A program made the position numbers and the translations under genes. A stretch of 64,000 nt of DNA from Lobulomyces angularis (lineage: Eukaryota; Chytridiomycota; Chytridiomycetes; Lobulomycetales; Lobulomycetaceae): the NCBI GenBank assembly GCA_027604685.1, contig JADHYX010000001.1, positions 5,045 to 69,044 on the forward strand. The letters are read 5' to 3'. Positions 25,009 to 29,025 of this stretch are shown piece by piece. How positions within the stretch are numbered: the stretch's first letter is position 1; the number at the start of each line of letters is the position of its first letter. The notes beneath the pieces are model-generated. The model was not told the DNA's origin. It worked only from the letters and a program-made list of their open reading frames with translations, and ran no database searches.

Positions 25009-28000
25009 ATGATGTCAGATGAAAAAGTTGAATTAACCAAAAAAAAATCAACTGTTACAATTCAAAGAAAGTTAACGACTATTCAAAGGTATTACTAAAG
25101 TAAATCTTACATAGCCACTTTTAGACCATTGAAGATTTTTGAAATTTTTACCTCTCTTTCTTTTTGATTTTTTTATTACTAACTCTGTTTTTAAAAATTT
25201 TCATAGTGGTCCCCTTCCTGTTCCTGTAACATTACCAGTTAAGGAAGATGAGCCTAACAATTCCCAGACCTTTACAATATTTTTACAATCTAGTAAAGGT
25301 GCAATGCCTATACAATGTCCAATTGATGCTGATTTAAATTGGCTTTTACAAACTGCAACTATAAGATTTTCAATGCGTGGGTTACTATGCCCATTTGTTT
25401 GTGCTCGAACGGAGGAGGGAGTAACTTTAACGGAATTTGACAATTTAGCCGATATTCAAAAGCAACATGGTATTTTTTTATTCACAGAGCAAGAAACAAA
25501 GCAGATGCCCGAATTAGCAAAATATTTTTTTAATCCTGATGTTTTAGGTATATCATTTTTTCTTAAATATTTATAACTAATTTTTATAGAACTAGAAGAA
25601 ATTAATAAAACAAACACTGATGATGACTATTTGGTACCGGAACCAGCAGAAAGTTTAAAAAGAAGGACAGGAATGAAAAGAGATTCTTTCCTCACTTCCA
25701 AGAGTTTTTTAGATAAGGAAAAAGATAAGCTTGGACTTTCTTCTTCTCCTTCTCTGAGAGATTCTGTTTTAGGTTTACATTTAAGTGAGACTGATTTAAG
25801 TGACCCAGATGTGCAGAGAAAAATTGAAAAAAGAAAAATAGCTTTTGAAGAAATTGATTTCGAAATTGGTCCGGAGGTTACTGATATACCAAAAATTGTG
25901 CTTGGCGAATCCACTTTGCATTTAGAACAAGGTCAACATGAAAAGACTAAGCACGATGAAGATACAACGGATGATAGAAAACCTTCTGGATTTCTATCAG
26001 AACTAACATCAGTTTTAAAAATTAAAAAACCTGTTTTGCCCACTGTGAAAAAAGTTTTGGATGCTGAGGATTTAGAAAAAATTAATTTAAGAAAATCTAA
26101 GCAGAGAATCGAACATTCTAGTCTAAACTTGAACTATGTCACTGAAGCAGAGTTTGAGGATGATATTGATAGTGAGGAAACTGAAGATAACACTTTTGAG
26201 GCTGATATTGAAGGGGACATAGGAATGAAAAACTGGAATAAAGAAATGGATATTATTAGAAAGAAAACTTCTAATACAACTAAAAAAAAAATTGGTATGC
26301 GATATTTTTTATTGGTTAATCAAATTTTGTAGTATCTCACTCCGATACAATTGCAATCACATTTCCAAAATTAACCAATGGTTTGTTCTTTATTAAATTA
26401 CAAATTGTAATTTCTGATAATTTTAAATTATAGATGTTACACCAAATTCTGTTAAAGGTAAAGTAATTATGCTGTTTACTCAGACTATTTTTTAGGACTC
26501 CCTCCACCTGCTCCTCCAGCTCCACCTTCAACTATTGGAGGTAAATAAATATCCAATTTTGTTAAATTTACTTATTTAGGTCCACTACCACCAGCTCCAC
26601 CTCCAGGTCTCAGCGGTTAGTATTTTTATATTATATTAGTGTGGATCTGATCTACTTTTTTTTAAATAGGACCACCACCACCACCTCCTCCTCCAGTTCT
26701 CAGCGGTTAGTATTTTTATATTATATTAGTGTGGATCTGATCTACTTTTTTTTAAATAGGGCCACCACCACCACCTCCTCCTCCAGGTCTCAGCGGTAAG
26801 TAATTTTATTATATTAGTGTGGATCTGATCTACTTTTTTTCAAATAGGACCACCACCATCACCTCCTCCTCCAGTTCTCAGCGGTTAGTATTTTTATATT
26901 ATATTAGTGTGGATCTGATCTACTTTTTTTTAAATAGGACCACCACCACCTCCTCCTCCTCCAGGTCTCAGCGGTAAGTAATTTTATATTATTGTGGATC
27001 TGATCTACTTTTTTTCAAACAGGACCACCGCCACCACCTCCTCCTCCAGGTCTCAGCGGTTAGTAATTTTAGACTATATTAGTATAGATTTGCTCAACTC
27101 TTTTTTAAATAGGTCCACCACCACCTCCTCCTCCAGGTCTCAATGGTAAGTATATATTTTATCAGTAAGTTTAGATTTGTCTTTTGAATTCTTAAAATTA
27201 GGACCACCACCACCACCACCTCCCCCCGGATTTAACTGTAATTTTTCTTATCTTTTATTTTAATTGCTTTTTATTTTTAGGCCCTCCTCCCCCTGTATTA
27301 GGAGGTAATGAGACTTATAAGAATTTGTGTAGTTTCTTATAAAATAAAAAAAACACCAATTTTTTAACGTTATAGCTCCTCACCCAGCAAAGCCAGTTTC
27401 CAGCGGTCCCGTTGAAGTATCTGCGAAGGATCTTCAAAATCAACTTGCTTTAATGAAAAAAAGAAAGCTAGAACGTCAGAAATTAGCAGCCGAAAAAGCA
27501 GCTGCAAACCTCGCAACTACAGAAGAGGTGGGTAGTGCTGCTGTCACTGACGAATCGGAAAAAACTGCAGAACTTAAAAAACTAAAGTTAGCTGAAGAGC
27601 GCCAAAATATCATTATAGAAGTATTGGGGTATATGCAGGCATCCTCAAGTGGGTCACTGGAAGAAATAATTGAAAAAGCAAATAAGTCTACGGCAATTGC
27701 CAGAAATTTTATTTACACTTTAGTAAGAAAGCAGTGGGTAGAAGGATTTCGTATCATTGACCCATCGACTGAGCCTGAAGCTCTTAACGATTTTCAAAGT
27801 GGGTCAAGAAAAAAAAAAGAAAAAGTTCCTTGCATTGTTTATCCAGGGAAAGAATATTCAACTACAATTACTCTACAAGATAAAACTATTGATGAAATAA
27901 ATAATATATATCCAAATCAAGATTCTTTTGTTGCAGAAGCATCCATGTACCGATTTGACGCGAACTTGCAAAAGCATGTTTTGGATAAAATAAAATTCTA

Positions 28001-28844
28001 CAAGACAGCTTTATTTCCAAAACCCTACGAAGCTTTTATGGAACCGGAGCCACCACAAGATAGTAGTTTAGAAAACAGAAATAAATGGGAACAATGGAAT
28101 AAAAATAAGTTGGTATTTTTTAACATAATTTCCTGTGTTTTAATTTATTGTATTAATAATTTAAGGATCACGAGCAAAGCGACTCAGCGCAATACAATTT
28201 AATATACAATAAGTTGAAAGCAACAGATTTAATTACCGTTACTGCTTTCCAGAGCTTGGAGCAGACTATATCACAGATGAGGGAAATGAATGATAAAGTA
28301 AATGCAGCTTTTAATGACATGCCTATTACAGAACTCAGAAAGGTTGGTTTTTTTCTTAACTTATCATAAAACCGTAAATTTTTTTCAGTTACCTGCACTT
28401 ATTCCTAGGGAAATAAAAAATTTGGCTGCCAGACTTCATAAAAAGAATGGAATTATAATTAAAGATGAGGATTTAAAATTGACACCAACATTTTTGGTAA
28501 TAGATAGTGAAAATATTACCGTGAAACTAAAACAATAATAAATAAATAGGAAAGTTTGATGGATCCTGACGGTTTAACGAAAGAAGAAAGAATGGAAAAG
28601 GATAAGAAAGAAGGGCTGGTGCAAGAAAGAAAAAATAAAAACTTGGCATCTTTTCCAAGGGAAAGCGTGGATTTATTGTAAGGAAATTACTTTTTTGTTT
28701 TTAAAATTTAGTTACTTAAATGTATTACATGCTAACTTTCTCGTCTCTAGATTTAAAACTTTTTATGATTTAAAAATGAAAGAACAAAAGCAGGCAGCGA
28801 AAATGGGTTCATCTGTTCCTAAAAGATCTGGTACAATAGCATAA
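25009..28844 (+). CDS. Polyproline protein with tandem micro-exon array, unrecognised family
   Basis: About 915 aa in at least 17 exons. Part 1 (exons 25009-25088 and 25207-25547) has a possible ubiquitin-like or Ras-association fold: TFTIFLQSSKGAMPIQC, then DADLNWLLQTATIRF. Part 2 (to about 26296) is charged and disordered, with LSSSPSLRDSVLGLHLSE. Part 3 (26496-27304) is proline-rich, made of ten very short exons of the type GPPPPPPPPGLSG. Part 4 starts VEVSAKDLQNQLALMKKRKL and continues as a helical/coiled domain (IIIEVLGYMQASS, IARNFIYTLVRKQWVEGFR, LALIPREIKNL type helices) to a basic C terminus. The layout recalls formins or WASP-like proteins, but I see neither an FH2 domain nor a clear WH2-CA tail. 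Polyproline suggests profilin or SH3 partners (inference). Confidence 0.8.
26580..27145 (+). repeat. Tandem exon-intron array coding polyproline
   Basis: Seven exons at 26580-26615, 26670-26705, 26760-26795, 26848-26883, 26938-26973, 27023-27058 and 27113-27145 are 36 nt long (the last 33) and code P-rich units ending GLSG, VLSG or GLNG. Every intron interrupts a Gly codon in phase 1, so any exon can be skipped or added without changing frame. The intervening introns are also nearly the same, sharing a 'gtggatctgatctac' core before a T run and the acceptor. Unit spacing is 85-90 bp. Flanking exons at 26496-26540, 27202-27237 and 27281-27304 are diverged relatives. Confidence 0.93.
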
Positions 28845-29025
28845 CAGCGCATAGTAGATTTTTAAAATATTAATATAATATATATTTTTTTAATATAATT
28901 TTTGTTATTTATTATCATTTTATGATGTATGAATTTAATAGAGGGAAACAGCATATATATATATAATTTCAATAAAAGATCAAGAATTAAAAATATTGTT
29001 TTTTTTTTAACTAAACTGAAATGTG

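Follow-up and report, generated by a model that had tools for sequence, protein, structure and literature searches.

A gene of Lobulomyces angularis, located in a window of 64,000 nucleotides (the whole stretch of contig JADHYX010000001.1 that was analysed), contains a polyproline tract encoded by a tandem array of very short exons that alternate with similar introns. With a probability of about three in four, this structure is a young, homogenised array of cassettes of approximately 90 bp, placed in a gene for a probable actin regulator, that has expanded at the DNA level and whose exons are constitutively spliced. The repeating unit is constituted by one phase 1-1 exon of 33-36 nt and one spliceosomal intron of 49-54 nt. 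Since its phase is equal on both sides and its exon length is a multiple of three, the unit is frame-neutral, and the near-identical introns provide a longer match for recombination; these two properties make gain and loss of units by unequal crossing-over or gene conversion the simplest history of the array. Such an exchange between units would presumably add or remove about 12 residues, with a run of 7-8 prolines, while keeping the reading frame.

The gene model was made by hand and all its splice sites are predicted from DNA. A splice parser was also used, which has no preference for proline, learned codon usage on eight further open frames within the window, and draws its splice-site weights from 16 distinct introns, all of them from the array gene. 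The parser recovered 15 of the 18 introns of the hand-made model, including introns 6-13, and made five further predictions that differ from it; because its weights were learned on the array gene, the fact that it finds the array does not count as independent evidence. The features of the gene are as follows:

25009..28845, plus strand: whole gene, 19 exons, 915 amino acids; open across 18 GT-AG introns and collinear with the Clydaea vesicula ortholog P0001
25207..25547, plus strand: exon 2, N-terminal region, including an SKG stretch that is conserved (gene model, homologue alignment)
26333..26380, plus strand: probable extra exon of 48 nt, phase 1-1, within intron 3 (parser and P0001; absent from the hand-made model)
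26434..26457, plus strand: exon 4, 24 nt, phase 1-1 (gene model)
26496..26540, plus strand: exon 5, 45 nt, phase 1-1, GLPPPAPPAPPSTIGG (gene model)
26580..26615, plus strand: exon 6, 36 nt, GPLPPAPPPGLSG, first array unit (gene model, unit comparison)
26616..26669, plus strand: intron 6, 54 nt, GTTAGT..TAG, identical to introns 7 and 9
26670..26705, plus strand: exon 7, 36 nt, GPPPPPPPPVLSG (gene model, unit comparison)
26706..26759, plus strand: intron 7, 54 nt (unit comparison)
26760..26795, plus strand: exon 8, 36 nt, GPPPPPPPPGLSG (gene model, unit comparison)
26796..26847, plus strand: intron 8, 52 nt, GTAAGT..TAG, 91% to introns 6, 7 and 9
26848..26883, plus strand: exon 9, 36 nt, GPPPSPPPPVLSG (gene model, unit comparison)
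26884..26937, plus strand: intron 9, 54 nt (unit comparison)
26938..26973, plus strand: exon 10, 36 nt, GPPPPPPPPGLSG (gene model, unit comparison)
26974..27022, plus strand: intron 10, 49 nt (unit comparison)
27023..27058, plus strand: exon 11, 36 nt, GPPPPPPPPGLSG (gene model, unit comparison)
27059..27112, plus strand: intron 11, 54 nt, least similar member of the related set, 72-83% to introns 6-10
27113..27145, plus strand: exon 12, 33 nt, GPPPPPPPGLNG (gene model, unit comparison)
27202..27237, plus strand: exon 13, 36 nt, GPPPPPPPPGFNC, eighth unit, beyond the coordinates of the initial annotation (gene model, unit comparison)
27281..27304, plus strand: exon 14, 24 nt, phase 1-1, CPPPPVLG (gene model)
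27376..28845, plus strand: exons 15-19, containing a WH2-like stretch and a conserved C-terminal domain for which Pfam gave no match (gene model, homologue and domain searches)

The seven exons of 33-36 nt that the initial annotation had placed at 26580-27145 are exons 6-12 of this model (36, 36, 36, 36, 36, 36 and 33 nt). Their successive starts are spaced 90, 90, 88, 90, 85 and 90 nt, in agreement with the 85-90 bp first described; the introns between them (all GT-AG; 54, 54, 52, 54, 49 and 54 nt) had been called nearly identical, and this applies in full to three of the six, all six being related at 72-100%. Each of exons 6-12 is in phase 1-1 and its junction codons are split Gly codons (GGN), so that their description as frame-neutral cassettes bounded by phase-1 Gly codons holds. 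Exons 7 and 9 carry PVLS instead of PGLS. On either side, exons 4, 5, 13 and 14 extend the phase 1-1 run to eleven symmetric micro-exons in a row (exons 4-14, 24-45 nt), with a probable twelfth of 48 nt at 26333-26380 that was predicted by the splice parser and whose residues are also present in P0001. The split codon is Cys after exon 13 and Ala after exon 14. The introns adjoining the array are only 38, 39 and 43 nt long (window 26458-26579 and 27238-27280), and lengths of 38-43 nt are near the lower limit for spliceosomal introns.

Array repetition is far from chance: Tandem Repeats Finder scored the region 26577-27153 with 874 at a period of 90 and with 910 at a period of 178. Similarity among exons 7-11 is 92-97%, and between these and exon 6 it is 83-89%. 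Introns 6, 7 and 9 have the same sequence (54/54); introns 8, 10 and 11 show 72-91% identity to these three and to one another. Values for intron 12 (62-69%) and intron 13 (58-62%) against introns 6-11 fall within the range of the unrelated introns of the array gene (pairwise mean 57%, maximum 69%), indicating that the homogenised block comprises six introns only (6-11). Exons and introns 6-11 thus share common descent, and the proposal that exon and intron were duplicated as one unit is supported, since both are alike from 6 to 11 and introns 12-13 are not. Exons 6 and 7 differ at 5 of 36 bases, yet the introns downstream of both are identical; the start of the exchanged tract is therefore probably within an exon. 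Because units two apart reach 97% identity and the period of 178 outscores that of 90, some duplications were probably of unit pairs.

A different history, which we regard as unlikely, is that a repeat that already existed acquired its introns singly and gene conversion made them alike afterwards, with no duplication of units. Two formins of the same genome (on contigs C200 and C11, described below) would fit such separate gain, since their exons repeat while intron resemblance stays at chance. However, it does not predict the joint similarity of exons and introns 6-11, though conversion could yield both.

With respect to splicing, the units would be constitutively joined, and retention of an array intron would stop translation; an in-frame stop is found upon retention of each of introns 5-14. 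It has to be considered whether the symmetric exons are instead skipped in varying number, giving isoforms in steps of 12 residues in the manner of schistosome genes. Any skip would stay in frame, since the exons are in phase 1-1 with lengths in multiples of three, and the donors of the six array introns are mixed (GTTAGT in four, GTAAGT in two), GTTAGT being a weaker donor than GTAAGT. However, the short introns (49-54 nt) point to intron definition as the mode of splicing, whose errors result in retention, and retained array introns stop translation; moreover, the units are nearly identical and the isoforms would therefore differ chiefly in length. A splicing cassette of this kind seems improbable to us, and DNA-level expansion with constitutive splicing is preferred.

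The number of units can be compared with a public protein. The best protein match of the array gene is HK099_003816 (P0001), a hypothetical protein of Clydaea vesicula with 96% identity. Their full alignment has 848 paired positions and 5 differences. Of these, one falls within the proline array and three fall beyond it; the fifth is at an exon junction on which the gene models disagree. While the window has 8 units, the predicted protein P0001 has 5: GPLPPAPPPGLS, GPPPPPPPPGLS, GPPPPPPPGLS, GPPPPPPPGLN, and GPPPPPPPPGFN. The third of these, with seven prolines followed by GLS, is absent from the window, so that the DNA of the two loci must differ somewhere. A difference in copy number is likely from this comparison, and it indirectly supports the suggestion that unit number changes at the DNA level. 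P0001 ends 30 residues early and carries VGFFLTYHKTVNFFQ at the position of intron 16 of the hand-made model; its gene-finder may therefore have skipped units too, and skipped micro-exons or a collapsed repeat in this predicted protein could mimic part of the difference.

Tandem repeats are often mis-assembled, and the unit number of the window, or its difference from P0001, could for this reason be an assembly artefact, the more so as P0001 is only predicted and its contig measures 26.6 kb. We consider this quite improbable: the units can be told apart by their own substitutions and lengths, P0001 holds a unit that is missing from the window, and the longest exact repeat within the array (79 nt) is below the common size of short reads, so that collapse by such reads was not inevitable.

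The intron core, searched with at most three mismatches in the assembly (20.76 Mb, 533 contigs), gave five matches, all in array introns 6-10, and the reversed-pattern control gave none; the core is thus confined to the array locus. That mobile, introner-like elements were repeatedly inserted at the Gly codons of a proline repeat is hardly credible, since near-identical introns at equivalent positions would fit it but the exons were duplicated along with the introns, and dispersal would be expected whereas all 5 of the 5 core matches in the 20.8-Mb assembly lie inside the array. A 44-base match on contig C102 was rejected as an intron copy; it covers a proline exon of another gene, not the array intron.

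Pfam gave no match to the window protein at E values up to 1. A formin identity was rejected, as FH2 was not matched in that same search (Pfam, E up to 1); the 18 FH2 matches of the genome are on five contigs other than that of the window. Ten homologues were found, P0001 included, whose common features are a C-terminal region of about 350 residues and the proline tract. Seven of the ten bear an organism name, and these we take to be chytrids; a second search gave eight more relatives, the one with an organism name being a Rhizoclosmatium. Among nine homologues scanned for WH2 only P0004 gave a match, below the cut-off (E 0.0095, 16 bits vs 23.1), and none was obtained in the window protein. 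Weak PDB matches of P0004 were with N-WASP (E 0.03), talin-1 (0.045 and 0.054), and a gelsolin/cordon-bleu/thymosin chain (0.08). When the fold of the C-terminal domain (window 27376-28845) was compared with the PDB by means of a predicted model of homologue P0103 (mean pLDDT 70.8, pTM 0.50), nothing matched at an E value of 0.001 or better, and the comparison was therefore no help in naming the domain.

Taken together, the proline tract, the WH2-like stretch and the conserved C-terminal domain point to actin regulation as a probable, though not established, role of the protein. Polyproline runs of formin FH1 regions and of WASP-type proteins adjoin actin-binding parts. The proline tract of the window protein presumably binds profilin or another polyproline-binding protein and, given such a partner, unit number would set the count of docking sites.

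The initial annotation had considered a repeat borne by micro-exons as unusual in a genome with such short introns. This is not sustained here, since phase-1 micro-exons are predicted for proline tracts of several other genes of the genome as well; some of these exons have 9 nt, and one, in the formin of contig C200, just 6 nt. For instance, in the DAAM-like formin of contig C11 (L025, L053) the proline tract is predicted to contain 18 consecutive exons of 9-30 nt, all in phase 1-1. The C. vesicula protein P0011 has identical residues for 16 of these 18 micro-exons, the final two being absent. The introns of this gene show a mean identity of 54% and a best pair of 71%, against a mean of 53%, a 95th percentile of 63% and a maximum of 69% after shuffling. 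In the C200 formin (L033 576-1449), predicted exons of 27 nt and 9 nt alternate four times, all in phase 1-1, and the introns are mutually dissimilar (best pair 65%). Intron similarity close to chance in both formins fits old duplication and separate gain alike.

A pattern of acceptor, Gly and five Pro codons was found 6 times in the array and 7 times outside it (13 sites), against 5 for the reversed control, so that single sites of this kind prove little; three of the contigs with sites outside the array carry FH2 matches (C11, C147, C515). Seven genes were parsed: the window gene, the formins of C11, C515, C147 and C200, a WASP-like gene on C296, and a gene on C102. They comprise 115 internal exons, 44 with at least 40% proline, 57 with less than 20%, and 14 between. 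Phase 1-1 was present in 43 of the 44 proline-rich and 17 of the 57 proline-poor exons, and a length of up to 45 nt in 41 of 44 and 17 of 57, respectively (34/35 vs 13/48 and 32/35 vs 16/48 with the window gene left out); the phase contrast is weaker than these counts, because array exons are related, the parser errs and the genes were chosen for their proline tracts, and the figures thus describe a gene set and are not a genome test.

Runs of six or more CCN codons occur on 24 contigs, and the parsed genes cover runs on six of them; on contigs outside the parsed genes only the stop-to-stop length was taken. Stop-to-stop spans shorter than 150 nt were counted in 12 of 30 proline tracts outside the window, 6 of 6 inside it, and 1 of 18 glutamine tracts, which gives weak support to micro-exons in the proline tracts, as the proline spans were counted by eye, 7 of the 30 had no stop on at least one side of the piece and were scored as not short, many of the proline pieces measure just some 420 nt, CCN runs may in some cases lie on the antisense strand or in another frame, and the 18 glutamine tracts were drawn from the first 30 of 160 matches, one locus supplying four of them. 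A counter-example is the formin of C16, with an open frame of 582 nt upstream of its proline tract, and some other proline tracts likewise lie within long open frames.

These data suggest, tentatively and at less than even odds, that in this chytrid lineage proline tracts of actin-assembly proteins are regularly strings of phase-1 micro-exons (6-36 nt, with 27/9-nt alternation in the C200 formin), in which introns cut a GC-rich triplet repeat and whole profilin-binding sites become the unit of gain and loss; arrays with alike, young introns would change rapidly in copy number, and those with diverged introns, as in the formins, would be frozen. Judged by intron similarity, the window array appears to be the youngest of the arrays compared. 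When public proteins are compared, the C11 formin, with its diverged introns, has the same residues in the shared exons, whereas the window array, with alike introns, differs; with one sequence pair per gene, any link between intron similarity and array change may serve only as a lead.

The window array is of a known kind, for which CNN00420 of Cryptococcus neoformans and MaSp2 of Argiope are precedents, and it belongs to the tandem intron-bearing coding repeats, as exon and similar intron repeat as a unit (units 6-11). Its closest relative is CNN00420, in which, according to the parts of the report consulted, a coding repeat of about 107 nt consists of exon ends and a full-length intron, the introns are identical and EST-supported, and the number of intron-bearing repeats varies among resequenced strains (Sharpton et al. 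2008, PMC2395259). Both are fungal coding repeats that carry their introns. However, the window exons have 33-36 nt, copy-number change is based on one predicted protein, several genes share a related architecture, and the array is a proline tract, which is not mentioned for CNN00420 in those parts (PMC2395259). In the MaSp2 spidroin genes of Argiope, as far as the text consulted goes, repetitive coding units are bounded by homogenised introns, which in most MaSp2.2 paralogs lie inside a Gly codon, and some genes alternate two intron types (PMC9779670). The window array shares homogenised introns within Gly codons as unit borders, but an ensemble repeat of MaSp2 occupies one exon or exon pair with introns averaging 97.6% (PMC9779670), while the window units have 11-12 residues and introns of 72-100%. 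The coding regions of schistosome micro-exon genes are mostly composed of very small symmetric exons, alternative splicing generates variants, and the products described in the sections consulted are found in secretions and glands (PMC4350168). Exons 4-14 of the window gene are small and symmetric in the same way; unlike the schistosome products, its product is a probable actin regulator.

What appears to be new here are the proline tracts of several actin regulators, formins and a WASP-like gene among them, as strings of exons of 6-36 nt predicted from DNA. We know of no report of formin FH1 or WASP-type tracts with this exon structure, and literature searches on fungal micro-exons and FH1 exon structure gave no such tract design among the matches listed, mostly non-subscription papers. 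If the splice models hold, arrays of one type but of different age coexist in one genome, that of the window being homogenised and those of two formins having diverged introns, which would permit a test of whether intron similarity governs the rate at which protein repeats change in length. In formins, profilin-actin delivery is believed to be tuned by the length of the proline tract. Exons of 9 nt in a row would further probe how such short exons are recognised by a spliceosome that handles introns of about 50 nt, and they are a warning that in standard annotation some of their parts may be skipped or read through.

Many DAAM-like proteins of chytrids contain PPPPPPPPGxGG repeats of 12-13 residues. 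In the Terramyces/Boothiomyces proteins P0005, P0006 and P0024, proline runs are broken by peptides such as YANTNSR, YSININSR and YLAINSS. When peptides of the YANTNSR type are back-translated by hand they can be read as GTAT...TAAT..TAG in 21-24 nt, and they may, tentatively, be very short introns that were read through. Odd peptides, GKKLIFMKIPDHVPTIG and GKDCLLTIG, are also present between proline units of P0022 (Rhizoclosmatium) and P0042 (Globomyces); going by the protein sequences, inspected by hand, these could be read-through phase-1 introns, hinting at interrupted tracts in other chytrids.
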